From Diplocarpon mali (lineage: Eukaryota; Ascomycota; Leotiomycetes; Helotiales; Drepanopezizaceae), in NCBI GenBank assembly GCA_024741835.1, contig JAENRP010000488.1, positions 1 through 19,324 of the forward strand: a stretch of 19,324 nucleotides of DNA, given 5' to 3'. The position numbers and the translations under genes are program-made. The notes below the pieces were generated by a model. That model did no database searches. It had not been told where the DNA came from and worked only from the letters and a program-made list of their open reading frames with translations. Shown here piece after piece: positions 1,700-19,324 of this stretch (the stretch's first letter is position 1; the number at the start of each line of letters is the position of its first letter).

Positions 1700-3529
1700 T
1701 TTCTTCAAATAAGTTATCAACTGCGTAATATCCTTTGAGAATAAGTCTTTTACTATTATTATAACTAATAGATCGTTCTATAGTCTTCTTCCTATGAGCG
1801 CCTTTAATAATAGACCACCTTTCGTTATTTTAAGTATTATATAGAACTTTGCAAATGATTCGCCTATAATACTCCATCTCGCAGTCTAGGGTCGCTTTAT
1901 ATTAATAGCTTCGATCAAAAAGTCCTCTAGGTCCACTCCGTTCTTAAGGGCTTTATTCCCGACAACTTTAGTGTAGTTGTTGCTAACTATAAGGAAGCCG
2001 CCTTTGCCAGGTTCCTATTCCGAATCTAAGTTAATAAATATTCCTTATCTTATAAACACTAAGAATAGGACGGTCTTATTAAAAATATATTCTTTTAAGA
2101 ACGTCCTTTATTTAGTATTTAGTTCTTTTTATTAAGCAGCGCTTTGTACTAAGTTTATCGAAATCCATTAAGCATTCTTAGGTCTAGTTAGTATAAGGAT
2201 TGATAATTCGTAAGACTTCTCTTATATAGCAAATTAGCCGGTCGATTATTTGGCTATTAGAATGATATAATAGTCAATAGTTCTATTATTGGAAGGACTG
2301 ACCTGCGAGCCAGGCCTAGGAGTCAATCTTACAAATCTTGTATTAGTATCAATTCTAGTTGCGACGATTTTCAAGTAGTAGTCAACCCTAATAAACTTTA
2401 TAGGCTTAAGGTACGTTACTAGCTTGTATAAAGAATTATAATAAGTAAGCAAAGCGCTTAGATACAATCTATAGTATATTCTCAAAGTCTATTATATCAA
2501 ACTGTAAGTTATATTATAAAAGAACGCAGATAGAGGAGCTGGCTTCTTATTAGAGACTCGGAAATGATATCTATATATTTCCAGTTCTTCTTATACTAAT
2601 ATCAAAAATGAAGTCTTTGCGCAAGAACTATAACCATATATACATATAGCACTTAGGAAAGCATAACTAAATAGCTTAAGTATATTTAAAAAACCTTTGC
2701 TTTAAAATAATATTAATTTGTTATTAGTTAATATAGCATCGTATTAGGCGGGAGTCCAGGCGATATTATAGAATAATTTCAAAGCTTTAGGCGCTACTTT
2801 AAACTTAGCGAATCCTAATGATATATCTTTCTTAACCTAGCTTGCTATTCTATTGCTAGTGGCCATAATTGCATAATTCCTTAGGTATAGTAAAAACAAC
2901 TTTAGGTTAGGAGCAGTGCAAAATTTGTAGATATTAGACGATATATCTTTATTATTAAGGCCTATTATCGCCAGCCTATAGTACTGCGCGTATTATTGTT
3001 TATAGAGGGCATAGAATTTATCAAAATTAAAGTCCTTAAATATTCCTACCACAAATTTAGAGAGTCTTATTTTCATTTCTAGTATTATTACAATCTTGAA
3101 TCTATCGCTATACTATAGTATTATCTTAATATTAAAGGGAACTTGATAGCATTCTATAGAGACGATAGTCGTACTATCTTCTGACTTTTCTTCGAGAATA
3201 TAGTAGTTACTATTCAATTTCTTATAGTCGATAAAGAACTGCATAATATTATCTATAGAGAATTCGTCTTATTGCAGTTTTATGATTTATTTAACAGCTC
3301 TTACTATTCCTTCTTATGCTAATAAAACTTCTTCCTAACCTTCCTTTCTCAAACGCTTTATTATCGACTTATAGAATTTGAGAATAAACTTTTACAAGTC
3401 CTTAAGGAAGGATTAAATGATATTAGAGATATCTTTCTTAATATTATTAAAAATTTCTAGCACATTAGTAATAGCGCTATTCTCTTCTTCTAGTGAATCT
3501 TCTTCTAAGTCTATATTATTACGTATATT
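1700..3529 (-). pseudogene. Gene X, downstream half: large unrecognised protein, decayed and interrupted
   Basis: A single minus-strand frame runs from 3529 to the LINE junction at 1700 (about 610 codons), interrupted only by TAA/TAG. I do not recognise the family. Visible parts: an acidic start (DLEEDSLEEENSA), a helical Lys-rich part (KFILKFYKSIIKRLRK), a mixed central part (VPFNIKIIL, RFKIVIILEMKIRLSKFVVG, NLKLFLLYLRNYAIMATSN), a hydrophobic piece near 2640-2690 (LFSYAFLSAICIYGYSS), and a late part with EPGKGGFLIVSNNYTKVVG. One copy of the 23-bp palindrome at 2301-2323 is read in frame as LTPRPGSQV. The C-terminus is missing because the LINE is inserted at about 1700. The other half is at 9712-10817, across the copia element. 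The stops indicate RIP, either by leakage from neighbours or because gene X is itself repeated. Confidence 0.6.
2301..2323. repeat. 23-bp palindromic element in gene X
   Basis: Copy reading ACCTGCGAGCC, A, GGCCTAGGAGT. Exactly 23 bp, same orientation as all other copies, right flank CAAT. In the minus-strand gene X frame it encodes TPRPGSQV with no stop. Confidence 0.85.
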
Positions 3530-3721
3530 TATTAAGCTTAAGTGAGTCGGCGCAGTAGGTAAAGGAGGCTTCTAGAGGTCGATAGTCGATATATTAGTAA
3601 GAGTTAAGGAAGGAAGGTTACCCCTTTCTTCCTTATAGCTATATATATATCAATATCCTACTGATTAAGTAGTAGGGTTATATGATAATATATTAAAGTG
3701 ATAGCTATATTACCTATCTTA
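3530..3721 (-). repeat. Copia 3' LTR
   Basis: 192 bp, aligned without gaps to 9520-9711. I count about 18 differences, all C/T or G/A transitions. Read on the minus strand it starts TAAGATAGG and ends AGCTTAATA, i.e. TG...CA ends changed by RIP. This copy is more mutated than the 5' LTR. Confidence 0.9.
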
Positions 3722-3733
3722 ATACCCCTACTT
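3722..3733 (-). other. Possible copia polypurine tract
   Basis: On the minus strand AAGTAGGGGTAT lies directly against the start of the 3' LTR, where plus-strand DNA synthesis is primed. Short and partly degraded, so position is the main support. Confidence 0.45.
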
Positions 3734-3862
3734 AAACCTTACTCCAATTGACCTATAGTTAGGAAAACAACAACTATCCTTTTATGCTAATCCAACTCTT
3801 AAGTATCTTTCTAAATTAAAAATAATCAATTAATAGCAACTTCTATTAAAATCACCAACCCT

Positions 3863-4013
3863 ACTTATAAGGCGGGACCAGGAGTCAAATTCCTAAAAGC
3901 GTTCCTTTATAAGACTACGTAACTTAACTCGCGGTCCAGGCCTAGGAGTCGATTTAAAAAAAACTTTCCTTTATAAGACTATATAACCTGACTTGTAGGG
4001 TAGGCCTAGGAGT
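3863..4013. repeat. Three 23-bp palindromes in tandem, 64-bp period, after the copia stop
   Basis: Copies at 3863-3885, 3927-3949 and 3991-4013. The 41-nt spacers are related to each other (both contain TTTCCTTTATAAGACTA or a close form), so this is a 64-bp tandem repeat with the palindrome as one part. It lies between the copia stop cluster (4025-4030) and the 3' LTR, in apparently untranslated sequence. Its period is not a multiple of three, unlike all arrays inside reading frames. Confidence 0.85.
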
Positions 4014-7000
4014 CGTCCTTAAGCCTACTAAGCCCCTATTGTCTTCTGCAAACCTAGCATATCTTTAAACGCTTTAAACTTTATAACCGTCTTTAATAGC
4101 TTTATAAATCCATCTGCTACTATTCGATCAATTGGGATATAGGTAATTAATAACTTATTCTTTATAATAAGGTCGCAGATAAAGTAGTAGGCAATATCGA
4201 TATATTTCGATCGCTTATATAAGTGTAGATTCTTTATAAGTATAATCGCCTTTATATTATCTACTTAAAGATTAATATAGTTTCTATCTTATCTAATATA
4301 CTTAGCGAAACTTATATCTTTTAAAACTTAAGCGATTTATAATCCTTGCTTATAATTTGATAATATTAATATATATTTAGCCTTAGTGCTTGCAATAGCT
4401 ATTGATTTCTACTTCCTACTTCCTTATAATATAAGTCTACTATATAATACTGCTATACTTTTAGATATACTTTTCCGACCTTTTATATTTACCTAGTCGG
4501 AATCGGTATATACCTTAAGCTTTATACTTATATATTTTATTAGTCTGTATCTTACCTTCTATATGATTATCAATTGAAGGTACCTTCTAAGTCGCTTAAT
4601 TACATTCTTATATCAAATCGTTAGATCCTTTAAGTTCTGATTAAGTTACTTAATAATAAAGGTAATATCTGATCTTATATATATTATAGTATATATAATT
4701 ACTCTAATATCCTATTAGTACTTCTTTAGATCTCCTTTCTACTCATTTTCATTAATAGGCTCTAACTTATTATACTTTGCTTTAATTGAAGTACTCTTTA
4801 GCTTAAAGTTAGGAGTATAAGTAAAGAGTCCTATTTAGTCTAGGATCTTCTTAATATACTGCTCTTAGTCTAACTAGAGTTCTTAAGTAGAATAGTTCCT
4901 TATAACGCAAATGCTAAGGATCTTATAAATTCCTTTTAGATCCTTAGTATTAAAATGTTTTTAAATTATTATAAAGAACCAATCTAATTAAGTAATTGTT
5001 TTCGCAGCTATAGTAATATCGTTAATATATAGTAGCAACTTAATTCTATACTTAATATAAGTAAATAGATAAAGGTTAGCTAGGCTCTAAACGAATCCTA
5101 TTTCTATTAAAGTAGAGCTATATAAAAGGTTCTAATCATAGGCTAATTGTTTAAGCCTATAGATATTGCAGAGTATATAAAGAGAGTAGCCAGCGCGTAT
5201 AGGAATACCATTAGGTTGGGAAAGAAAAATCCGTTCCTTTATAATCGCTTTAGTAAATGCATTTTTAATATTATACTATTTATATTTAAGGTCTTTAGCA
5301 GCTACTATTGCTATAAATATACAAAGGGTATCTATGCGAACTATTAGCGCAAATATATCGAAGTAGTCTTCTCCATACTATTAGGAGAAGCCCTTAGCTA
5401 TAAGCCTTGCCTTATAACGTTTTAAGGTCCTATCTGTATATATCTTAATTATAAAGACCCACTTTATTAAAACTAGGTTCATATCCTTTAGCGTTAGTTC
5501 CTCTATTTATATACTATTTGTAGTAAGAGAACTTATCTCCTCTTAGATTGCCTTACTTTATACTGCTCTATTCTTTAAATTATTAATAGCTTTATTATAT
5601 ATCTTTAGAAGAGAGATTTTTATTATTCCCTTAGCGGCTAAGAACGCATTATCTTTATCAAAGCTCTATTAAAGTTCGAGCTCGTAGATCCTATGCGCTA
5701 TTATAGCCTAGATACGCTTAGACTTGCGTTTATTTAAAGTATCTTCCAGTTCTAAATCTCTATTCCTCTTTAAAGGAGTAGGTTTAGCTATAGGTTCTAT
5801 AGGCTTATTATCTAAGGAACCGCTTTCTAATAGTAGAGGCTTATCGTTACTTATACCTATTTTAAGAATATCCTTTATTATAAGTACTTTAACTAAAGGG
5901 ATAATAATATTAAAGTTATTCTATACTTTAAGTAGTTTATAGACGATAGGAATAGTCTATTCGGCCTTTAGGCGACTAATAGGTCGTTAATTAGTAGGTG
6001 CGCTTAATATGCTTAAGCTAAGAGAGAGGGGTTATTAGTTCGGCTTAATAGTATTACCGTCGACTAGTATACCTTGCGAATCTTTAAGTATATAGAGCTT
6101 TAAGGATAGCTCCCTCTTATTTTGAGATTTATTAAACTCAACTATTAAAGATGTAATTACTTGCTTTAGATCTAGCGTATATACTATCTATTGCTTTATT
6201 ATCTATTTAATATACTTAATAAATATATACTCTTTACTTTAGTCTATTAGCTTCTTGCTCTTTATACCTATAGGCTAGGACTTCAGGCTAATATAAGAGT
6301 AGTAGACGCTTTTAAAGACGCAGATATAGTCTAGGCTTAGTTTCTATTCGAAATATACCTTATATAGTAATATTTAAGTACTATTAACTATTAATCTATT
6401 ACTTATTCTATTTCGCAAGTATATATCTGCCTTAACCGCAAAGTCCTAGAATTCTAATAGAAGGTCAGTATCTTATAATAGAGCGCAATAGTTAATCTCT
6501 ACTTACTAAATGCTTCGCTTAGTAATACTATTTTAATAGGAACCTTTATATATTATAATTAGTTTATAACAAACTCCTTATTTTACTTATTTATTAAGCT
6601 TTACCTTAATCTCTAATATATTATTAGACCTAATAACTATTAGCTTTAACTAAGTCCAGCATTCCTTTATCACTTTTTAAGTTTCTAGCTTTTTTATAAG
6701 CTTAGATTTAGTTCTAGCGCAAATAGTCCATATCTACTAAATAGAGTTATCTACTATTTAAAAAACCAATTATTTCCTTTAATTAAGGTTATAAATAGTC
6801 TAGTAATATTAATAGATATTAGTGCTAGTATTAAATCTTTCTATAAATTAAGCTTAGTTTGCGTTTGATTTTAAAGTTTTATTAACTTACAAATTCGGTA
6901 TACTAAGCGATCCTTTAGTACTTAGATCTTCTATTTTAGGGTTAAGACCTTATATAAGCCCTTTAATTTCTTTAGCTTTAAATATGTAAATCTTCTATAT

Positions 7001-7123
7001 ATTAGCTAATACCTTAATAGGCTTTTAGCTTCTAATAGCTTTAATAGCCTATTATTAGTTAATACTTTATTATTAATAGCTAAAAAGGACTAGTGATAGC
7101 AGTTTAAGGTTTTGCTATTTTCC

Positions 7124-7593
7124 AATTGTAAGCCTAGCTTTAGAGTCATTTTTAATAAAACCGCGAGATCTACTCGCAGTCTTAGCTTAAGAGTCGATTT
7201 CCCAGAAATAGCGAGATCTACTTGCAGTCCTAGCTTAAGAGTCGTTTTTAATAAATTCGCAAATTTTACTCGCAGTCCTAGCCTAAGAGTTATTTTTATA
7301 AATTTCACTCGCAATCCTAACTTAAGAGTTATTATTAGTAAATCTATAGAATTTACTCGCAGTCTTAGCCTAGGAGTCATTTCTATTAAATTCACTTATA
7401 ATCCTAGTTTAAGAGTCATCTTTAAAGATATATTGCATTCTACTTATAGTCCTAGCTTAAGAGTCATTTTTACGAATTTCACTTATAATCCTAATTTAAA
7501 AGTCTATCCATTCTCCTTATCCTTACTTAATTATATTAAGGCAAAGAGTGCACTTTCCTTAAAGGAATCCACTTATAAGTCTAGCTTAAGAGT
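7124..7593. repeat. Array of ten 23-bp palindromes inside the copia ORF
   Basis: Copies start at 7124, 7172, 7220, 7268, 7307, 7355, 7394, 7442, 7481 and 7571; each is 23 bp. Steps are 48, 48, 48, 39, 48, 39, 48, 39 and 90 bp, all multiples of three, leaving spacers of 25, 25, 25, 16, 25, 16, 25, 16 and 67 nt. On the minus strand the copia frame passes through all ten in the same phase, giving repeats such as TLKLGLRVKFIKI and TLKLRLRVDLAVLLKM. The 25-nt spacers resemble each other in part (TTTTTAATAAA recurs), so the array grew partly by duplication of larger units. It sits between protease and the GAG-pre-integrase domain. The plus-strand open frame over it is only the antisense reading of the same repeats. 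Confidence 0.9.
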
Positions 7594-8229
7594 CAATTTC
7601 TATAATATTACCTTTAAGATAATATAAAGTCTATCTTTAATTTTAGCTTTAAAGATCACTTTATAATTATTATTTATAAATTATATAAATTGATTATTAA
7701 AAACTCTTATATAATTCAACTTTATATAGATCTTATAGTTAAATAAAAGATTAATACTTAAGGTAGGTATAAAGAGAACATTTTATAAAAGAAAAGAAAC
7801 GCTAGTAATATTCATCTCTACTATACCTATTTAGTCTATATACAACCTTCTACTACTAACCTTAATAAAGCGCCTTTTTATTTTAATAAGCAGGCCTTTA
7901 AATAGGTAGGGTTTATTAATTATATATACTATATAACTAGTATTACTATACTAATCGGATTCAAAGATCTTATAAAGATCGGCTTTTAAGATATAAGCAT
8001 CTTTATTATAATTATCATTTGAATTATCAAAAGTAGATTTAAGTTTAAATAACCTATTATTATTATTAGAAGTATCTGCTAAAGTTTTAATTAAATAGCC
8101 TTTTCCTTTGCCTTTCCTTAATAGTTGCAGCCTTTAATAGGATAAGGGCAGTTTACTTCTTAACTTCTGCTTCGATTGCTTTTTAATATTAAAGCTAGCA
8201 ACTATATTAATTAATTGCCTTCTAACTTT

Positions 8230-8268
8230 ACAATTAGTAATATTATAAGTACTATTATAGAAGTAGCA
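8230..8268 (-). other. Copia Gag zinc knuckle (degraded)
   Basis: Reads CYFYNSTYNITNC. With Tyr for Cys and Tyr for His this fits a CCHC knuckle, although the spacing before the His would be three rather than four residues. It marks the nucleocapsid end of Gag. Confidence 0.55.
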
Positions 8269-9120
8269 TCCCCGATAAGCTCAAGGGCTCGTCCTACGCT
8301 CCTTCCTCTTTTTAAGCTTATTATTGCCTTATAATATAGCATTTACCAATTCAAAGCGTCCTTTAAGGTCTTACTTAATAGTTTAAAAGAGGTTGATCTT
8401 CTTATAGATCTTAAGGTTAGGTTAAATAAGAAGAGATTATTTCGCAATAGTAAACTTAAAAGGAAGGCTATTAAGTAGGAAACTAAAAAGCTAAGTTTCC
8501 TTAAAAATCATAGCTATCTTAAGATCTATAGCTCTTACTTTCCTTCTCGCTTTATATAGTATAAATTAAGTAAAGTTTATATTTATATTTATATCCTTAC
8601 TATCTTTATCTTTTCTATATTAAAATAAAGTGATCTACTATAGTAGATATTAAGTATTAAGGGCAATTGTTTAAAAGTATTTTACCTTTAAAGTATCCTA
8701 TCTTATCTTTATATTATTATAAATTTAAATAAAATCTTAATCTTTATTGCTTAAACCTCTATTAATCTTAAGCTTATATTTAGCTAAAGCTAGCCTATAC
8801 TCCTTCTCCTTTTTTATATTTAAAATCTGCCTTTAGGATTCTTAATTATTATCTACTAAAGCTCTTAAGCTAAGCTTATTTAATATATCTGGCAAATCCT
8901 TAGTAGTTATATTAGCTATTAAAGTAGAAGTAAATAAATCGGTAAAGGGAGTATAGGAGGCTATTCTCGCGTATTTAATAAGTGTCTTTTAAATCGCTAT
9001 TTCAATGCCTTTGCTTTTAAAGTAAAGCTCTAAATCGTCGAACTATTATTGCCAGTTCTTTCGAGAGAGTTAGAGGTCTCTAAGTCTAGTGTTTCGATCG
9101 GAATCGGAAGCTATTGCCAT

Positions 9121-9503
9121 TTCGAATAGAATTGTATTAAAATCAAATAAATTAAATAGCTAAAGGCATTCCTCCTATCGAAAAGTCGAAATGATTAAAT
9201 AATAGGTATTATAAAAGTATTAAATAGGGAGGAAGTCCTCTTATCGAAAAGGGTTTTTAGGCTATAACGCAGGGAATCACACCTCTTATAAAATATAGTA
9301 AAGCAAGGAATCATACCTCTTGCAGTACCAAAGGGGTTATAAAGCAAGGAATCACACCTTTTGCAATATAGGTTAGCTAAATAGGGAATCACACCTCCTA
9401 TTCGCCGATTGCTTACCTCTTACTATAAGTCTTATTCAACTTCCTACTAATAGTTATAGCGCAAGTGCTTTTTAAGGGAAGTTAATAATCTATTATCAGT
9501 TTA
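9121..9503 (-). other. Copia leader (5' UTR)
   Basis: About 380 bases between the primer-binding site and the Gag ATG. It contains four hairpin repeats (9269-9401) and a 15-nt direct repeat (CCTCCTATCGAAAAG at 9171, CCTCTTATCGAAAAG at 9237). The short minus-strand open frame 9195-9392 is made of these repeats and I do not regard it as a gene. Confidence 0.7.
9269..9401. repeat. Four hairpin repeats with constant loop and changing stems in the copia leader
   Basis: Each unit is a 5-nt arm, the 11-nt block GAATCAYACCT, and a complementary 5-nt arm. Loops lie at 9274-9284, 9308-9318, 9349-9359 and 9386-9396. Arms are GCAGG/CTTAT (CCTGC before RIP transitions), GCAAG/CTTGC, GCAAG/TTTGC and ATAGG/CCTAT. 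The last stem may extend, since TAAATAGG faces CCTATTCG with two RIP-type changes. The loop stays constant while both arms change together, suggesting selection for RNA structure in the leader. Confidence 0.7.
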
Positions 9504-9519
9504 GCTAAGGCTTATAACC
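9504..9519 (-). other. Copia primer-binding site (half-tRNA type)
   Basis: Directly after the 5' LTR the minus strand reads GGTTATAAGCCTTAGC. Allowing G-to-A changes, this fits GGTTATGRGCCC, the complement of the anticodon stem-loop of initiator tRNA-Met. Drosophila copia uses the same kind of internal half-tRNA primer (PBS GGTTATGGGCCC). Confidence 0.65.
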
Positions 9520-9711
9520 TATCAAGCTTAAGTGAGTCGGCGCAGTAGGTAAAGGAGGCTTCTAAAGGTCGATAGTCAATATATTAGTAAGAGTTAAGGA
9601 AGGAAGGTTACCCCTTTCTTCCCTACAGCTATATACGTATCAATATCCTACTAACTAAGCAGTAGGGTCATATGATAATATATCGGAGTAATAGCTGTAT
9701 CACCTATCTCA
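9520..9711 (-). repeat. Copia 5' LTR
   Basis: 192 bp. On the minus strand it starts TGAGATAGGTG and ends AAGCTTGATA, where the final TA stands for CA. It is the less mutated of the two LTRs and is followed directly by the primer-binding site. Confidence 0.9.
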
Positions 9712-9720
9712 AAAATATTA

Positions 9721-9743
9721 ACCTATAGGCCAGGCCTACAAGT
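9721..9743. repeat. 23-bp palindromic element in gene X, next to the copia insertion
   Basis: ACCTATAGGCC, A, GGCCTACAAGT; right flank CAATTT. In frame on the minus strand (TCRPGL*V, the stop coming from CGA or CAG). The copia 5' LTR lies only nine bases away. Confidence 0.85.
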
Positions 9744-9906
9744 CAATTTCTTTACCACCGATGTTTAAGGTATTCTAAGCTTTTCTAAGGATAGTGACTC
9801 AAATTCGTTTAAGTTAAAGGATTAGTAGTCGAGCAGGTCAGCTGCTTAAGTTCCAGGTGTTATAAAAACCTCTGGCTTAAGGACATCTTCCTTAAGTGCT
9901 GATTCC

Positions 9907-9929
9907 ACTTATAGGCCGGGCCTACGAGT
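9907..9929. repeat. 23-bp palindromic element in gene X, nearly symmetric
   Basis: ACTTATAGGCC, G, GGCCTACGAGT. The two arms match at every position if TTA is read as RIP-altered TCG, so this copy best shows the original symmetry of 11+1+11. In gene X it is read as TRRPGL*V. Confidence 0.88.
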
Positions 9930-10817
9930 CAAATTCTCCTCGTCAGTTATTCCTACCAAGGGTAGCAGCATTTTTAAAGTAATAGGGATAACAAACTCCT
10001 ATCTCTCTATCTTATTATCGAAGTAATTTATAGTATACTCGGCGAGATAAGTCATCTTTTCTTTTATAATAAGTAGACTATATTACAACTATTAAAGGCC
10101 AAGTGTATTTAAAACAGTTTGATCGGGAAGTGCAAAATTATCATACTATAAGGGTTCGTCTTTTATAATCTAAATAGTAGAGTGCATAATAGTACTTAAG
10201 AACCTAACAAATTTTCTACCTCTAATGCTATTTTCCTATAGCTTTTTTATACCCTTTTAAATAGTGAAATGATTTAACACCTATATGGCCTTTGCTATAA
10301 GTTGGTATATCTTAAAGATTTTGCCAAGCCCTTATAGGGCGTTATTAGCAGTAATATCTATTATAAAGTAGGTCTGGAACAATATGCTATAAGTGCCGCT
10401 AGTAAACTGCAATAGTCTTTTAATATACTTCTCCTTTTTATTTCTATTCTTCTAAAACAAGTCCATAGAGTTGGCATAACCCTAATATTCTTATAAAAAC
10501 TTCTCCTAATCAATACCCTTAGTTTTCAATTCATTTTCAAAGAAGTCATTAAATCCTAAAAATCCTTCTTCTATAGTAGAAATTCTATAGTTCAACACCT
10601 CTATAGATGAGTTTAGGAATACTTGCTATTCTATTTCACCTAATGTTCTATAAGTGCTTATAATATCTTCCAATGATCTTAAAGTTTTACTATCCTAAGA
10701 GAATCCTCCCTTTAATATTAGTTCTTTGCTAAGGGCGGCCAAGGTCTTGCTACCTAATGCAACAATAGCTATGCTCTTTTGAGGTATAGCCTTTTTGCTT
10801 ATGCTTTGTAGTATCAT

Positions 10818-11095
10818 AATAAATTATTTGACAAAAGTAATAGGGTTCAATTGGTAGAAGAATAAATCCTCTAGAAAGAATTTATGAAGACTAAAAGCTT
10901 TAATTAGAAAAGATTGATAATAGAAAGATAATACTAGTAGTATTATTAGTGCTAGTGCTAGGGTTTAGTGGGATTGTAGAAAAGGTAAAAAAAAGTAAGA
11001 TCGTAGTATAGGGAGAGGTTTATTTATAGAGATGGGAATCGCATTAGCGCGCAAAGGAAAAGTAGGCATAAAGAGGCCGAAAGTAGGAACAAAAG
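10818..11095 (-). promoter_or_regulatory. Gene X promoter and 5' UTR
   Basis: Between the gene X ATG and the gypsy 3' LTR. On the minus strand a TATAAATA box lies at 11028-11021, about 200 bases before the ATG, in pyrimidine-rich sequence. Base composition is less AT-rich and keeps CpG (GCATTAGCGCGC near 11041), so RIP is light here. The gypsy insertion at 11095/11096 separates this core promoter from its upstream sequence, now at 18280 onward. Confidence 0.5.
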
Positions 11096-11346
11096 TATTA
11101 CGACTTGCTCTGGAGCGTACAGAGGGGCGATAATCGAGTAACGCTGATTGTATTACCTCAAGAGGTATGCTATATAATAGAAAAGAAAAGATAAAGAAGA
11201 GAGAGTCTCTAGTAGAGCTCCTCTAGAATAAGTACAGGTGCTTTACTAGCGTGTATATGATCTAGCCACCTTGCTACCTTAGCGTGCACTTGACTTTGAT
11301 ATATGATATGACTATGTATAACCGTACCTATGATACGGTTATAATA
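11096..11346 (-). repeat. Gypsy 3' LTR
   Basis: 251 bp; differs from the 5' LTR by transitions in the parts I aligned. Its outer part (11096-11160) keeps CpG and TpG, while its inner end (11310-11346) is heavily changed (CGGTTATAATA against CGGCCGTAACA in the other copy). Confidence 0.92.
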
Positions 11347-11361
11347 CTACCCTTCCCCTTT
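11347..11361 (-). other. Gypsy polypurine tract
   Basis: The minus strand reads AAAGGGGAAGGGTAG, 15 purines apart from one T, directly against the 3' LTR. Its last three bases are also the pol stop codon TAG. Confidence 0.8.
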
Positions 11362-11365
11362 GAAA

Positions 11366-11383
11366 AACTGCGCTTGCGCAGTT
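11366..11383. repeat. Perfect GC-rich hairpin at the end of gypsy pol
   Basis: AACTGCGC, TT, GCGCAGTT: an 8-bp perfect stem with a 2-nt loop, inside the last pol codons (TTAQAQF on the minus strand) and just before the polypurine tract. Its CpG sites are intact although nearby sequence is mutated. Confidence 0.75.
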
Positions 11384-13003
11384 GTATCTATAGGCGTATT
11401 ATCCTTTAGGTCCTTATAATCGTCAACTCTATTGTTATATGACCTAAGCTAGCTTAATAGCGCCCTTAGTAGCCCTTTAGCTTAAGGGTTCTTTAAATGG
11501 AAATCTCGAATAGCATACGGCGCTGTTATAGCATTAGAGCATAAGTACTATTTGAGGTCTTTATTAGCTCCTTTCTACTTAATCTGATATTCGAGCTTCT
11601 TAGCTTAAATATAAGATCCAATTATTTCTTCTATCTCCTACTCCTCTTGTTTTAATAGTACTTTAATTAAGGCAAGAGGTTCCTAAGCTTGGCCTAGCAA
11701 AGGGTTAGGAATGTATTTCTATAGTAAGTAGGAGTAGAATATAAAGTAGATCGAATAGAGCGAATTAGGCAATTGTAGCTTCTAGCTTTCTCTTAGCTTT
11801 TCTAGTACTTTTACTAGGCTGTACTACTTGTCGGAGAGCTTTCGGCTCGGCCGGTTAAGCTTTTAGTTTTTAGTACTAATTAGTATATTATCTCCTATAG
11901 TCTAATTAACTAGCTAGCGGTAGAGGTCTATAAGCCGTTTTATTTTAGCCTATTATACTTAAAGAGATAATTGAGCGAATTAGACTACTTTTTAAGCTCT
12001 AGTAGCTATATAGAGCGCTGTTTTACAATTTAATTTCTTAGTTGCTATTTATAAAGGCTTAAGGTTAATTAAATTCTAAGATAAGCGAGCTTTATAGCTG
12101 TTTAGCACTTAAAAAGGGGAAATTTGCCCTAGGGATTTGTAAAGCAAGGTTAATTAGGTAATATCTATTAAAGGTAAGAGACGATTCTAATTATCTTAGT
12201 AATATAAGTAGAACGGTCTAAGGCGTTATTTTAAGTATTGGTTTATAATCTTAGTTTAGCTATCGATATTAGGATTATAAGCTATAGTTAGCTTAACCTT
12301 TATACTTAGTATCTAATAGAGCTCTTTTTAAAAGGAAGAGATAAATTAGGCGCCTTTATCTAATAGAATTGAGTTAGGTATACTGAAATGGCATATCTAA
12401 TGAATTAAAAACAATTCTGCAAGGCCTTTTGCATCAACTGTCTTATAGCATAGGATCGAGACTGCTTTCTTTAATAATCGATCTATTATTACTAGTATAA
12501 AGTCGTAGCTGAGTTTGTTAAGCGGGAGCTTTATAAAATCCATTATTAAGTACTAATATACTTGTTCGGGGATTGGCAAGGGTTATAGGAAACCTAGTGC
12601 TTTATTATATTAAGCTTTTATCCTTAAATAATAATAGTTCTGGATATATATACTAATGTTGCTGCTAAGGCTTTTCTAATAGTATTTTCTTCTTATTAGA
12701 AGTCTAGTCTTTCCAATTCCTGCGTATATAACGCAGGGTTACTTATATATATAATAAATCAGGGCTATTCGCAGTTTAGGAGGTTAGGATAGTATAATAA
12801 GTCTACCTTAAAAGAAGAGTTTACCTTAGCTAAGTTTATAGTTGAAGCTATAGCTTTGCGCCTTATCTCGGAACTTCTATAGCTTAAGGGAGGTCTTATT
12901 AGCTTAAATGACCTTATTAATAATATAGTAGTTCGCCATATTGTACTTAACCTTAGACGTTAGGTCGGTAGGTGCCTCTATTAGCGCAATTAGTATAATT
13001 GTT

Positions 13004-13071
13004 ACTTATAGGCCAGGCTTAGGAGTGGAATTGATCTGCGCTAAAGTCACTTATAGGCTGGGCCTAAGAGT
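13004..13071. repeat. Two 23-bp palindromes, 45-bp period, in the gypsy RNase H-integrase linker
   Basis: Copies at 13004-13026 and 13049-13071. On the minus strand they are read in the pol frame as TLRPSL*V and TPKPGL*V. The right flank is GGAAT in both, as in other gypsy copies. The short plus-strand open frame here is their antisense reading. Confidence 0.88.
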
Positions 13072-14935
13072 GGAATCGCCTTTAGTGGTAAGTACTTCTA
13101 TAGAGAGCTTATTATTAGGTAAGAGCTGCTAGTGGCGTAAAGCTCGTTTCTTAGCCTTAAGAGAGGTCAGCTCCTAGTCTTAATATAAGAGTGTATTAGC
13201 TAGCGTATTCGTTATGCCTATTTAGTATATGATAAGGAAGTTGAAGTTAGCGAAGAACTCCGCTTAGCGAGCCTGCTAGGCTATTAAGTCCTTAGTTATT
13301 ATAAAGTACTTAAGGGCTTTATGATCTATATATATATATATTGTTTTCTAAGCCTTAAGTAGCTCTGCCTTATATTAGTAGAATAATTTAAAAATCGCTA
13401 AGAGCTCCTTATTATAAATAGGGTAATTTAGCTTAGCGTCATTTATAGTTTTCGAAAAGTACCTAATTAGGTAGTAGTTATTATCTTCCTAAAGTTAGAG
13501 GAGTACGCTAGCGATTACGCCATTAGAGGCGTCGGTCTTAAGCCTTATCTACTTCTATAGGTAATAGTAGTATAAAATTGAGGTCATTTAAAGGCTTAAG
13601 CGCAAAGCTTCCTAAGCTTTTTTATAAGTGTTATTAAAGTTAAAAGAAACGTTTCTTATAAAAGCTATTAAAGGTCGGCAGATACAACTATAGCTTTAAA
13701 TAAACCTTTAGTAGAAGTTATAGAACCTTAGGAAGCTTTATATACTATATACATTCTTAGTATATTTCCACTTTTAAATAACTAAGACCTTATTAAGGTT
13801 TACTTTAATTTTATAAACTCTAATAATAAATCCTAGGAACCTAATCTTAGTAACCCTTAACTCGCTTTTCTTAATATCTACTTAAAGGCTATAGCATTAA
13901 AGAATTCCTTAGATCTTCTTAATATAAATCTTATAATTAAGGGAGTTTTCTAAGTAAATTAGAATATCATTTAGGTAAGTAGAGTAGAAATTGTTAAGGT
14001 AGTTAAGGAGAATATTATTAATAAACCTTTAAAAGGTAATAGGCCTATTTATCAGCTCGAATAGTAAAACCTTATATTTATAGGTCCTATAACGCGTGCG
14101 AAAGGTAGTTAGGTCCTTAGCGTTAGCTAATATATAGATATAGTAGAAGGCTTATTATATATCGATTTTTATAAAAACATAAGCTTTCGATATATGTGCT
14201 ATTATCTTATCGATAAATAGAATTAGGTAGGGGTCTTTCTTTATTAAAGCGTTTAATTTCTAATAATCGATATATAAATATAAGGAGCTATTAGCTTTTC
14301 TAATAAAGAGGATTAAGGCTGCCTAAAGGGAATATAAAGCTTTAATAAATCCTTTATATAAGTTCTTAAGAATATAGCTCTTGACCTTTAAGAGCTATTT
14401 ATTAGTAAGGCGGTAGAAGGGTTTAATAGTTAAGTTATTCTTACCTATTAGCTCGATTTTATAATCTACCCTTAGCCTAGGTTCTAGCAGCTAATCTAAG
14501 GCCTAGCGATTAAAAACGTTCTTAAATTTAGTATACTAAGGCAGGAGCTTCTAGTCTATTAGCTTATTATTACTCTTATACTTAGCTTATAGTGCCGAAC
14601 TAAGGCTAAGGGAGCTAATTTCAACTTGCCTAGCCGATTCTCGGTAATTAATCTCTTAGTCTAAATTATAAATAGAGCTTATAAATATAAACTCTTTAAG
14701 CGCTAGTTCTTGAGTTTATATAGCTCGTTTTACCTTAGTTATAAAGCAGTAGTAAAGGGTGCCGATTGCTAAGGCTAAGATTAAGCTGATTTAATAAGCC
14801 GTCTTTAAAGGAGCGTTTCTCTTTATTAAAAGAAGGAGCAAAAGGTCTAATACTCTTAGTAAGGCCTACTTTATATAGTTCAAATCACTTTTCAAATCTT
14901 TAAAGAAACTGCTATCCCTAGGTCTATAAAAGGCT

Positions 14936-15048
14936 ACTCGCGGGCTAGGCCTAGGAGTAGAATTCGAGTTTGCAGTTTTTACTTATAGGCCAGGCTTAGA
15001 AGTGGAATTCGAGTTTGCAGATTTCACTTATAGGCTAGGCCTAGGAGT
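14936..15048. repeat. Three 23-bp palindromes, 45-bp period, in the gypsy protease-RT linker
   Basis: Copies at 14936-14958, 14981-15003 and 15026-15048. The two 22-nt spacers are nearly identical (both contain GAATTCGAGTTTGCAG). Read in the pol frame as TPRPSL*V, TSKPGL*V and TPRPSPRV. Tandem growth of a 45-bp unit keeps the frame. Confidence 0.9.
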
Positions 15049-16814
15049 GGAATTCGAGGCGTTATTACTTACTAGTACTAAGAGCTAGGCTTAGGCTATT
15101 CTAAGGTCTTTGTCCTTAGCGTCTATTATAGCTGCTTAACGATCGACGTTTTACTAGGCTATTAAGGGTTTTATTAGCTATAAGAGATCGATTAGTATAC
15201 ATTAATTAAAGTAAAGGATAATAGGCATATCCTTAGGCTAAGAGATACTGTTTTTCTCCCTTCTATAGGACTATTTAAGGTTATAGTGCTTTAAGAACTT
15301 CCTACTAATTAAAATATCAGTTGCTTTTAAGCTTTTAATTAAAAAAGGGAAGTTTATTTATCGCCTATTAATTATAAGGGTAAGTAAAATAGCAAATCGA
15401 ATAGTTTCTCCCTTAAGGCTATTATAGCTAATAGGGATAATCGGTTTAAGCAGTTTAATAAACTTTATCCTAAGTCTTTAAGAGAGCTAATATACTAAAG
15501 ACGTCTTAATAATACCGAAAATATTAGCTCTACTATTAATATAAGCAACTATTTTATAAATGATCTATTTTAAGCTAGTTCTATAAGAATTAAGAATTAG
15601 CGGCTGCCTATTAATAGGTAGGAATTAAAATCTAAGTCTTTTTATAAATTATAACTTATACTATAGTAAGAGTCTTTGCTATAGCTTAGCAATTTCTTAA
15701 TAGTAAGTCGTTTTCTATCTTAACTTTAGCTACTATAAACTTGCCCTACTTCTTTAGCTTAGGGTAGTCTATTATATAATAACTAAGGGCTCTACAGTTA
15801 TAGTAGAGATTAGACGACAGCTTTAGGCTAGCAAACCTTTCTTAATAGGCCGCTGGCAAGGGGGAATAAGTGTAAAGAGCTAAGGAGGTAGCTATAGCTA
15901 TAGGTCTTTATAACTCCCTTTTCAATATGCTAAGGACGCGGTCCTTTAAAGGGGAGAACGCAATAGTAAAGGCGACTTATCAAGCGTTATAAGCTTCTTC
16001 TTACTTGATATTATAAGCCTTGCAGTCCGCAATAGCTAAGAACTCATCTAAAGTAGTATAATTATTATTTATTTTATACTTCTCTATTTAAAGGTTATTC
16101 TTTAAAGCTAAGGAGACCTTTTTATAAATATCATTAAATTAATAAGACTAATTGATCTTGCTAGCTATAGCAAGGGTAATAAACTTAAATTAGAACTTAT
16201 TATATAATATTAAACCTATAGTTAGCCTATTATATTTAAGCTTAGCGGACTAAATGTAATTATAGTTAAAGAACCTTTAATCTAAGACCTTAAGGATATT
16301 AGTAATATATATAAACTTATTAGTAAAAATAAGATTTATATATTATAAGATTAGGTTCTAAGCTTTACTTATTATATACTTAAAGTAAGTAGTAATCTAA
16401 TCCTCTCTTAAAGTGAAGTTGCTTAAGTACTTTTAAATAAATACCTTTATAGCTATCTTTTAAGTATTATAGGTAATTTTGCCTTAGTAGTTGCTAAAAT
16501 AAGTTTAAGGGTACTTAATCTAATAAAGGTCGATAGCTAAGATTAAAGGTCGGATAATTAAAAGGTAGTAGTCTAAAGGAGGCAATAAGTTAGCGGTAAA
16601 GGACTGAGTATTCTAAGGGCTAGCACTTAAGGAAGAAGGGGTAGTAGTATTATTTTAAAGAGCGGCAGCTATAGTAGCGCTAATAAGGTTTGCGATTTCG
16701 GCCTATTAGGCAATTGAGAAAAGAGGGGCCGATATAGTAAAGGTAGATATTATTAAAAAGAGTATATCTTCTTCCTTAACCTTAATTAATAGAAAAGGAG
16801 TATTTTAAAAATCC

Positions 16815-16837
16815 ACTTATAGGCTAGGCCTAAGAGT
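16815..16837. repeat. 23-bp palindromic element in gypsy gag
   Basis: ACTTATAGGCT, A, GGCCTAAGAGT; right flank AGAAT, the gypsy type. Read in the Gag frame, not the pol frame, as TLRPSL*V. Confidence 0.86.
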
Positions 16838-16907
16838 AGAATCTGTATTAAAGGAGGTAACTTCCTAAGTAGGCTTAAGAAGGGGAATATCTCTAGGACT
16901 AAGGTTG

Positions 16908-16996
16908 GCAGTAAGGCCTATAGAACTAGTGGCAATAAGGCCTGTAGAACTAATGGCAATAAGGCCTATAGAACTAGTAGTAATAAGGCCTAATAG
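16908..16996 (-). repeat. 24-bp tandem repeat in gypsy gag, about 3.7 units
   Basis: Units at 16908-16931, 16932-16955, 16956-16979 and a partial one from 16980. Each has the block AAGGCCTRTAGAACTA. The 24-bp period keeps the frame and encodes a Ser/Gly-rich repeat of the kind SSTGLIAT on the minus strand. Confidence 0.85.
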
Positions 16997-17446
16997 TAGA
17001 GGTGCGGTTAACCTTTTACTCCTTTTAAGTGGTATAAGATTAAAGGTTATAAGTACTAACTCTTCTTATATTATCTAATTTAGTTTAAAGGGACCTAATG
17101 CTAAATAGTAACCTATTTAAAAGGGAGAAGATTAGTATAAGCAAAGCTATATATATTTTTAAAGCCTTTTAATAGAGTATATATTAAGGTATTATATATT
17201 TATAGATCTTAAGAAAGAAGGTTTTACTTTAAGATTACGTCTCTTCGCTAATTAAGAGTTGCAATAAGATTATCTAAGGATATAATATAAGTTTAAGGAA
17301 GTAGGGTTTAAGGATCTAAAGCTTATTACTCTACTAAAGTTGACCTAATCTCTAATAGTATAGTATAACCTACTAAGGCTAACTAAGTCTCTATATATAT
17401 ATATAGGTATAGATCCTTTAGTTTTATACTTAAATATTTAAAGGAA

Positions 17447-17632
17447 GGAGTAAGAAGCTTTAAAGAGTATAAGGAGAATTATCGATAAGTATAGGTCGAT
17501 AAGGAGTATAAAGAAGGTCGATGACTTATTCGCAAAGAGGGTTCTTTAAAGAGTTGAGTTATATTTAAGGGTTTTAAAGGAGTAAGGAGCTTTAAAGAGT
17601 ATAAGAAGAGTTATTAATAAGTATAAGTCGAT
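17447..17632. repeat. Two copies of a 54-bp block, 132 bp apart, in the gypsy leader
   Basis: 17447-17500 and 17579-17632 match except for A/G and C/T differences; both contain GCTTTAAAGAGTATAAG. The distance of 132 bp is 44 codons, which hints at coding origin, but no clean frame is seen. Confidence 0.75.
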
Positions 17633-17890
17633 ATAGTATAAAGTGTTTATAAGAGAGGGAGAGAGTTAAGAAGAGAAAAGTTATTATACTACTTTAAGTA
17701 GCAGCCTACGCTAGCGAAGCAAGGGTATAGTAAATAAAAAAAAAATTTCTTTTCGAATTGAAATTAAAGGTGAATTTCCATTTGCAAAATAGAGTAGGTA
17801 AGAGGTCGAAAAAACGAGCTAATCTTATATTCAAAGGTTATTATTCAGCTTTCTTTAAAAATTAGATTAATAAGATCTAGGCGCTATATA

Positions 17891-17956
17891 CGAGTTGCTT
17901 AAGGCAGTTTATAGTAGAAGAGTTAAGATTAAGAGATCGAGTTGCTTAAGGCAGTT
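17891..17956. repeat. 19-bp direct repeat in the gypsy leader
   Basis: CGAGTTGCTTAAGGCAGTT occurs exactly at 17891-17909 and 17938-17956, 47 bases apart. The repeat has escaped divergence by RIP, unlike most of the leader. Confidence 0.8.
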
Positions 17957-18023
17957 CAAAGTGATAATTCTAAAAGGGGTAGATATTAAGCTTCTTAGCA
18001 AAGGTTAAGTGGATCTTTTCTTA

Positions 18024-18274
18024 TATTATAACTTACTTTAAAGTATATAAAAGGGCGATAATTAAATAACGCTAACTATATTACTTCAAAAGGTATACTA
18101 TATAATAAAAAAGAAAAGATAAAGAAGAGAAAGTCTTTAATAGAGCTCCTTTAGAATAAGTATAAGTGCTTTACTAGTATATATATAATCTAGCCACCTT
18201 ACTACCTTAGCGTACACCTGACTTCGATATATGATATGACCGTGCACAACCGTACCCGTGATGCGGCCGTAACA
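18024..18274 (-). repeat. Gypsy 5' LTR
   Basis: 251 bp, minus strand starting TGTTACGGCCGC. Its outer end (about 18225-18274) keeps CpG, while its inner end (18024-18130) is strongly AT-shifted, the mirror image of the 3' LTR. Confidence 0.92.
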
Positions 18275-18279
18275 AAAAG

Positions 18280-18490
18280 TGGGGTATGACGCATATAAAG
18301 ACCCACAATTGGTAAATGATAATTATCAAAGGTAAGGATGACATTTCAAAGGTAAGCGTTAAAAAGTTGCATATAAAGGAAATAATCAAGGGATAGATTA
18401 TATAAAGAACGAAGAAGAGTAAAGAGCATATATAAAATAGGATAATAAATGGAGAATAAAGAGGTGCTAGTATATAAGAAGTAGATAATT
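18280..18490. other. Intergenic stretch between the gypsy element and gene Y
   Basis: About 210 bases without a supported gene. It holds a 12-bp palindrome TGATAATTATCA (18317-18328, two GATA motifs facing each other) and several TATA-like strings. Before the gypsy insertion it was the upstream region of gene X. A minus-strand open frame starting here runs across the LTR border and is not a gene. Confidence 0.5.
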
Positions 18491-19324
18491 CTAAAAAAAA
18501 AGATTCAACTCGAATTCGTAAGTTCTTCAAATGGTTTTTTCTAAAGGTAATAGGCTAGATTCTTTAGATTGCTCGACTCAAGTGTCGGTTCTATTATCAC
18601 TTTAGAGTCTTCTTCTCTTATATTAGTTCTTACCTTTTAGCGATTTCTCTAATTCAAGTGCCTTTACTAAAGGAACCTCTATTTATACCCCTAGGTTTAG
18701 TAGCCGAAGTTCATCCGAACTATCTTATAGGCTAAAGCTAGCCGAGTCCAACCTTACTCGCGGGCTAGGCTCGCGAGTCAGTCTTAGCGTTTCTAAGCTT
18801 AAGGGTAAAAATAGGGAATTGGTTTCCAAATCAGGGTCTAATACTATGCTAGCGTTTTAGTTCGTCTCTTTTCCGAACTTTCTTATAATAATGCCTTTAT
18901 TAATTAGTGCATTAGGCTCTTAGATAGCATTTACTTTATTGCATTATCCTTAAGGCTTGAGTTTATAAAGAAGCGACTTAGTATTTATAATATTCGTCTA
19001 GGCCTTAATAAGGGCGTTGAAGAGTTTTTGATTATATTTTATAAGGTGGATTTTCAATTTATCCTTATTAAGAAGGAATAACTCCTATACTTCGATTATA
19101 ATAAAGGGATCTGTCTAAGAGCGCCGACTAATAATGGCTTTAGAAAGGCTGCTGCAATTCTTAAGACAAAAAGCTACTTTAAAAGGTATAGTAGTTCTAC
19201 TTATATTAATCTATTAAGGTACTGGAGGTTACTTTAGAGCAAAGACTGAAAAGATAAGATCGGAGATTCGAGTCTCATTTTCTAAGGTATTCTTATTGCG
19301 AATGGCCGTATAGTTGTTTTTTTT
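18491..19324 (-). pseudogene. Gene Y, 3' part: unrecognised decayed reading frame
   Basis: One minus-strand frame runs from the window edge to a TAG at 18493-18491 (277 codons plus the stop), broken by TAA/TAG at Gln/Trp-like positions and a few TGA. I do not recognise it. Visible parts: NKNTLENETRISDLIFSVFA, a Cys-containing piece (FKVAFCLKNCSSLSKAII), a helical Lys-rich part (LFLLNKDKLKIHLIKYNQK, then NALIKA), and a Leu/Ser-rich C-terminal region with a basic cluster (YKRRRL). The layout recalls the C-terminal tails of fungal pogo-type transposases, but no catalytic domain is in view, so that is only a guess. One palindrome (18756-18778) lies in frame. The N-terminal part is outside the window. 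Confidence 0.45.
18756..18778. repeat. 23-bp palindromic element in gene Y, least mutated copy
   Basis: ACTCGCG, GGCTAGGCT, CGCGAGT: the outer seven bases on each side are exact complements and all CpGs are intact. Read on the minus strand in the gene Y frame as TREPSPRV with no stop. Confidence 0.88.

Follow-up and report, generated by a model that had tools for sequence, protein, structure and literature searches.

A 19,324-nucleotide contig of the fungus Diplocarpon mali (JAENRP010000488.1, our contig C488; here called the window, the whole stretch of DNA that was analysed) carries 23 copies of a near-palindromic 23-bp sequence. We propose that this 23-mer forms the centre of a unit some 35 bp long, which lies in the genes of Copia and Gypsy retrotransposons, is predicted to be translated as part of them, and would spread as a template-switching parasite of those same elements, a reading that we rank first while holding it with slightly less than even confidence. 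More tentatively, the unit could represent a new class of nuclear selfish DNA: a coding palindrome, again some 35 bp long, would exploit retrotransposons, jump from Copia to Gypsy families or back during reverse transcription, be harmless in linkers in either orientation and survive repeat-induced point mutation (RIP). A literature search found no description of such an element, and none for a cell nucleus; by word counts, the word "palindrome" is absent from the main texts of two Diplocarpon coronariae genome papers, including one that tabulates repeats (PMC11527701).

Copies, carriers and extent of the unit

The window is AT-rich (30.5% G+C), with a TA/AT ratio of 1.52 and a (CA+TG)/(AC+GT) ratio of 0.54, a composition that is the signature of RIP. 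Recounting recovered the 23 copies at the sites given in a preliminary description of this DNA, every one in the + orientation, and confirmed that no copy lies in the region which that description had labelled a long interspersed nuclear element (LINE), where the best stretch within positions 1-1500 matches at most 17 of the 23 bases. A degenerate pattern allowing up to three mismatches gave 22 strand-hits in the window, whereas 200 shuffles averaged 0.01. The genome (49.4 Mb, 676 contigs) was searched by pattern counts. The exact form found in the window, with up to three mismatches, has 634 and 631 matches on the two strands (control 0); a G+C-rich form has 671 and 671 (control 1 and 1); and a form that tolerates the C-to-T and G-to-A changes of RIP and one mismatch, the search that the preliminary description had called for, has 7,187 and 7,132 (control 1 and 0). 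The element therefore occupies at least 7,187 places, a lower bound on the copies, many of which are counted on both strands because the sequence is nearly palindromic. Copies free of RIP, which have the form ACTCSCGGKCCNGGMCCGSGAGT, were counted by exact fit to ACTCNSGGKCCNGGMCCSNGAGT and occur at 62 places (control 0). This unmutated core, sought only in its exact and not in diverged forms, had no match in bacterial or prokaryotic contigs and none in viruses, and Rfam gave no match in the window, in the gypsy-1 copy L044 or in the copia-2 copy L065.

The carriers are two Copia families, two Gypsy families, an element without pol (L040) that is flanked by long terminal repeats (LTRs), and a repeat family with the open reading frames (ORFs) X and Y. 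By Pfam, copia-2 contains gag, Pol_BBD, GAG-pre-integrase, SH3 and RVT_2, and gypsy-2 pol contains RNase H and H2C2. In the L040 element (L040:3589-6539), two direct repeats of 248 bp, 94% identical, stand 2.7 kb apart; its ORF (P0001) could not be assigned to a family, and neither a pol domain nor any other Pfam domain was found in it. The whole is likely an LTR element of the non-autonomous kind. L037 has a pair of inverted arms (L037:300-1323 and 5769-6790), each about 1 kb long, 90-94% complementary and made of copia-2 sequence in both directions. We considered a DNA transposon there and abandoned the idea, as L037 aligns with L065 along 4.9 kb and a second time in reverse, and L065 is a copia element by Pfam. 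The flanks of 50 unmutated copies, out of the 62 places, all match a carrier family (45 Copia or Gypsy, 5 Y), 41 through another locus and nine, which lie in reference loci, through themselves; three duplicate rows from overlapping loci, which had brought the list to 53, are not counted. No copy was found in a host gene, either among these 50 or among the exact tolerant-pattern places on large contigs, where C2 and C5 have none and C3 has two near its end; protein-kinase genes are present on all three. Five stretches of normal G+C content in the fetched loci have no copy in our map; three of them have Pfam matches to cellular enzymes, and a fourth, scanned in one frame, had no match.

The copies had been thought to lie in four unrelated sequences. 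This is true of Copia and Gypsy, whereas the proteins encoded by X and Y are homologous (E 6e-25; 410 positions aligned, 27% identical) and carry the element at two equivalent sites, X1/Y1 and X2/Y2; as these sites are common to proteins so divergent, the element must be old there or have been kept by selection. On contig C175 (L015, L016) about 5 kb separate the gypsy-2 RNase H-H2C2 site from Y, which is downstream of it. In L033 and L042 the two repeats share a strand, with X after Y. The X/Y pair may belong to gypsy-2 or adjoin it. Neither X nor Y has a Pfam match of its own. A role as gag for ORF Y and the L040 ORF was considered and dropped, given the missing Pfam matches, the position of Y downstream of gypsy-2 pol and the homology of X with Y.

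The palindrome itself is imperfect. Pair 5/19 is G-G or C-C in 40 of the 50 unmutated copies, and this mismatch marks the orientation of the element. At stem pair 9/15 we saw no covariation (18 G-C, 10 T-A, 22 mismatched; n=50). Two 35-mers nevertheless fold into hairpins of -17.2 and -17.7 kcal/mol (z -3.93 and -3.40), with 0/200 and 1/200 shuffles folding as well. The unit, first described as exactly 23 bp, is longer: AT-rich flanks are conserved over about 6 bp on each side, with the consensus RAWTTS before and SRAWTY after the core, itself near-palindromic. In 28 hand-picked rows, which include some tandem neighbours and homologous sites, seven flanking positions per side sum to 3.2 bits, whereas 500 null draws had means of 0.56 and reached at most 1.12 and 1.23; genome-wide, the core pattern with SRAWTY on one side has 648 and 612 matches on the two strands with up to three mismatches (control 0). 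The unit may be about 35 bp long, or it may be a 23-bp insert with a preferred target, as both fit the data. With two of the 28 rows left out, no target-site duplication, site-specific direct repeat or site-specific pairing of the outer arms was found in the remaining 26 site rows, and the flanks are not a site-specific duplication. In a search for empty sites, 41 matches to the joined flanks of the gypsy-1 gag site were found, of which 30 span the junction, all with 19-38 extra bases, and the remaining 11 cover one side only. The core has no CpA or TpG when its central base is C or G, so that RIP should hardly touch the element; this would account for its prominence in such AT-rich DNA.

Reading phase and encoded peptide

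In intact D. coronariae proteins the element lies in linkers and reads T-R/P-G/E-P-G-P-G/R-V; P0001, P0006, P0007, P0019 and P0126 have TRGPGPGV, TPGPGPRV or TREPGPGV. Both orientations occur in coding sites and give nearly the same peptide (TRGPGPGV or TPGPGPRV). In L044, whose G+C content is 49%, gag reads STDF-TPGPGPRV-DSRN, the stretch before the reverse transcriptase (RT) reads DSNL-TPGPGPRV-KSANSNL-TPGPGPRV-KSANS, and that between RNase H and integrase reads GDS-TRGPGPQV-TSV, where P0006 has TPGPGPRVTLAQIDSTRGPGPRV. Copia-2 was read in L065, whose 5-kb frame has 22 stops, and in P0126, a D. coronariae protein of 1,491 residues: two copies lie between gag and protease in both, and between integrase and RT there are two in L065 and three in P0126.

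The preliminary description held that all copies share one reading phase, and for most coding sites this is borne out. In the window, the five gypsy-1 pol copies (13004, 13049, 14936, 14981, 15026) share a frame with RVT_1 and RNase H, and the ten copies of the copia-1 array share one frame, which differs there from the RT frame; in L034, a better copia-1 copy, coordinate arithmetic shows three array copies to be in register with Pol_BBD, SH3 and RVT_2. The element in L040 keeps the reading frame of the P0001 ORF, the two Y sites lie in the frame of fewest stops (26 vs 53 and 53), and gypsy-2 pol has close to its end a degenerate site, TYKPVLQV, that shares the RNase H frame. Of the coding sites, 10 of 11 agree (binomial 1.3e-4 under equal phases). 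X1, X2 and X3 are also in phase by fewest stops; X1 and X2 were left uncounted as equivalent by descent to Y1 and Y2. "Always" is nonetheless false: one gypsy-2 site is out of phase in 9/9 copies, and the three copies located 3' of the copia RT (3863, 3927, 3991) are each in a different phase. Since the unmutated core has no stop in any of its three frames, the bias in phase is not forced by stops.

Translation is best supported by the spacing of neighbouring copies. Outside the copia-1 3' site, 109 of 111 spacings are multiples of three, mostly 39, 45, 48 and 54, whereas at that site, downstream of RT, only 6 of 19 are (Fisher p 1e-11; this noncoding array was identified by a spacer string selected by the analyst). 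We therefore predict that the coding arrays are, or were, translated.

What has been conserved is the DNA and not the peptide alone. Every one of the 254 six-frame matches to the peptide motif in all loci is the DNA element itself (score at least 21/23), and its threonine codon is ACT in all 254; shuffled loci gave none (one shuffle). Transversions in 300 copies concentrate on positions 9 (n=116) and 15 (n=63); position 10 (n=23) and position 2 (n=12) follow, and the third codon positions 3, 6, 18 and 21 have none, although the 20/23 threshold limits the change that can be seen. Both sets contain many copies of the same sites, and the 254 count both strands of a near-palindrome. The constant ACT and the third positions free of transversions indicate that DNA was copied and the peptide not reinvented.

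Relatives are closest in D. coronariae, the apple blotch fungus. The L040 ORF, with stops masked, matches five proteins, all from this species, at 70-78% identity, and the gypsy and copia polyproteins have their best matches there at 87-89%. In the gene models P0002-P0005 the agreement with P0001 ends at the element or beyond it, in two cases immediately behind GPGPG, as though a gene predictor had set splice sites at the element. The motif was found in none of the copia relatives (P0127 of Rhynchosporium graminicola and 35 others), and among the gypsy-1 matches listed it is absent from P0020 of Drepanopeziza brunnea and from 10 of 13 others. Three metagenome or unnamed proteins from outside Diplocarpon (P0008, P0009, P0017) carry the look-alike peptides TREPGARV, TPEPSPQV and TREPGPRV in gypsy linkers, which may be older relatives of the element. 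The corresponding peptide pattern has 3 matches in non-Diplocarpon proteins against 0.005 in shuffles, a figure that we give little weight, as the pattern was drawn up after those proteins were known.

Possible spread by reverse transcription and rival explanations

The identified Copia, Gypsy and LTR-flanked carriers have the LTR-retrotransposon life cycle in common. Copies would have moved between families as DNA or RNA, with reverse transcription as the vehicle and the hairpin as the jump point: a strong hairpin in packaged RNA could make the reverse transcriptase switch between co-packaged templates, so that a short palindrome would be copied between RNAs in either orientation and tandem arrays would form. 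X/Y would on this proposal belong to gypsy-2 or a similar element. An insert rich in Pro and Gly would be tolerated in linkers, and most insertions in other phases would have been lost through selection for polyproteins that still function.

Several observations weigh against such a template-switching parasite. Reverse transcription as the vehicle is inferred. The stem is not under selection for pairing, as the non-covariation at 9/15 attests; target-site duplications are missing; and the insertion event itself is unobserved, as every junction-spanning gag match is filled. X, Y and the L040 ORF are three carriers unproven as retrotransposon proteins, and the position of Y downstream of gypsy-2 pol on the same strand (L015/L016, L042) is a misfit for gag. 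Persistence at X1/Y1 and X2/Y2 may mean function. In gypsy-2 the out-of-phase site, located between the RNase H and H2C2 domains, reads LASPARE, a relation of element to flanks kept in all nine copies, and the N-terminal stretch of P0001, which has no counterpart in the other four gene models, contains LPGRARE, a possible second out-of-phase site if that stretch is real protein. Similar peptides in the three proteins from outside Diplocarpon weigh against the proposal too. Confinement to LTR elements as opposed to other transposons is also weakly tested, as extracts of the D. coronariae literature put LTR elements at about 30% and LINEs and DNA transposons at below 1% (PMC11527701).

Of the explanations ranked below reverse transcription, a useful peptide moves up through the persistence of two sites in X and Y at 27% identity. 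T-x-G-P-G-P-x-V would then be a spacer, or a site for a protease or host factor, gained once and spread by recombination, with the palindrome as a by-product. Its phase is biased, its sites fall at polyprotein boundaries that need cleavage or flexibility (gag-protease, protease-RT, protease-SH3, integrase-RT, RNase H-integrase), and the variable positions 9, 12 and 15 are third codon positions in the ACT phase. Constraint on a peptide does not, however, require the transversion-free third positions or the uniform ACT codon, element copies also stand in the copia-1 3' array and at the copia-2 G site, for which we found no coding frame, and one coding site reads LASPARE; we consider this explanation unlikely. 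Somewhat less probable again is a true mobile DNA, similar to a miniature inverted-repeat transposable element (MITE) or a Rickettsia palindromic element (RPE), moved by an unnamed transposase or endonuclease that prefers RAWTTS/SRAWTY, the distribution reflecting tolerated insertions. Flanks conserved on both sides (3.2 bits each, above the null maxima of 1.12 and 1.23) and the use of both orientations are what it would predict, but the lack of target-site duplications and of any copy found in a host gene is not.

The dyad symmetry also recalls a protein-binding site kept in LTR elements for transcription or silencing. Zinc-cluster factors, for example, bind CGG-N7-CCG, and the unmutated core has CGG...CCG half-sites and occurs in several spaced copies. 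Yet many copies lie deep in coding linkers at spacings that are multiples of three, and positions 9 and 15 vary independently, so we regard a binding site as very improbable. Least credible of all, in our judgement, is an ordinary repeat, in which the copies would be parts of one RIP-mutated transposon family duplicated across the genome. Most fetched copies do lie in AT-rich, RIP-like repeats, members of a family share sites, and X and Y do form a single family. The check proposed at the outset, an alignment beyond the 23 bp, contradicts it for both Copia and Gypsy: the same 23 bp stand at non-homologous positions with only about 6 bp more in common on each side. The check thus does not refute the reading in the preliminary description.

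Known systems compared and features of the window

Comparison with known systems, based on extracts of the cited sources, places RPEs nearest. RPEs are palindromic, about 150 bp long and inserted in frame in unrelated bacterial host (metabolic) genes, where they encode a conserved peptide (PMC10969869). The present element resembles them as a short hairpin-capable palindrome, in frame in unrelated ORFs (10/11 sites) and with a conserved peptide (P0001, P0006, P0126). It differs in length (a 23-bp core, about 35 bp with flanks), in location (50/50 unmutated copies in repeats and not in cellular genes), in host (fungal LTR retrotransposons and repeats, with no exact core match in bacterial contigs) and in its tandem arrays. 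The RPE logic suggested in the preliminary description thus appears to hold as a working principle and not as membership, for which length, host genes and bacteria all fail.

Organellar palindromes and palindromic amphipathic repeat coding elements (PARCELs) come next in these extracts. The former, including Volvox repeats, are hairpin-forming selfish repeats for which reverse transcription is among the vehicles discussed; those of Volvox do not code for protein, and the copies in its nucleus have been described as inert (PMC2670323). Yeast mitochondrial GC clusters, double-hairpin elements and Volvox repeats share with our element the habit of short, proliferating, hairpin selfish repeats, whereas the 50 unmutated copies here lie in transposons or repeats (the mitochondrial genome was not looked for). 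PARCELs encode a 25-residue amphipathic domain, often in membrane-targeted proteins, in arrays partly tied to mobile elements (PMC2996958). They too are coding repeats with dyad symmetry, tandem arrays and a partial link to mobile elements, but the segment here has 8 residues (about 12 with flanks), is Pro/Gly-rich and lies in linkers. MITEs are likewise small, non-autonomous, multi-copy inverted repeats; the present unit is much shorter and has no target-site duplication (26 site rows).

In bacteria and organelles, where short mobile palindromes are known, their mode of movement is an open question; here thousands of copies lie in elements with a well-understood life cycle, so that a role of reverse transcription in the spread of palindromes becomes testable in yeast with Ty1. 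The case also offers a coding segment common to non-homologous retrotransposon superfamilies, and a sequence preserved under RIP by the near-absence of RIP targets.

Table 1. Element copies and carrier repeats in the window.
Feature	Position	Strand	Remarks
Copy in repeat ORF X, site X1	2301..2323	-	TPRPGSQV; counterpart of Y1 in ORF Y; also present in L033, L035, L039
Three copies (3863, 3927, 3991), 64-bp spacing, downstream of copia-1 RT	3863..4013	-	Three different phases; taken as noncoding
Ten-copy array in copia-1 (7124, 7172, 7220, 7268, 7307, 7355, 7394, 7442, 7481, 7571)	7124..7593	-	
Copy in repeat X, site X4	9721..9743	-	
Copy in repeat X, site X5	9907..9929	-	
Two copies (13004, 13049), 45-bp spacing, RNase H-integrase linker of gypsy-1	13004..13071	-	
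Three copies (14936, 14981, 15026), 45-bp spacing, protease-RT linker of gypsy-1	14936..15048	-	
Copy in gypsy-1 gag	16815..16837	-	TLRPSL*V in window; TPGPGPRV in less mutated L044
Copy in repeat ORF Y, site Y2	18756..18778	-	TREPSPRV
copia-1 retrotransposon	3530..9712	-	LTR-like direct repeats 3530-3722 and 9520-9712; RVT_2 match; interrupts repeat X
gypsy-1 retrotransposon	11096..18266	-	LTR-like direct repeats 11096-11338 and 18024-18266; RVT_1, RNase H, SH3_Tf2-1
Repeat X segments	2301-3529, 9713-10817		
Repeat Y	from 18756 on		

By comparison with L034, the ten-copy array of copia-1 was placed between protease (Pol_BBD) and SH3. The X-Y stretch is uninterrupted in L033 and L042, and copia-1 and gypsy-1 (Table 1) appear, from the arrangement of the repeats, to be nested insertions into an older X-Y stretch. 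The gag region of gypsy-1 also has a separate 24-bp tandem repeat in three copies (16906-16991), and at 9265-9368 there is a short repeat around GGAATCACACCTCTT with three copies listed. In other loci, runs of N that mark assembly gaps adjoin element copies (L039:2010-2076 and L035 near 5840), as if the palindrome had hindered sequencing or assembly.

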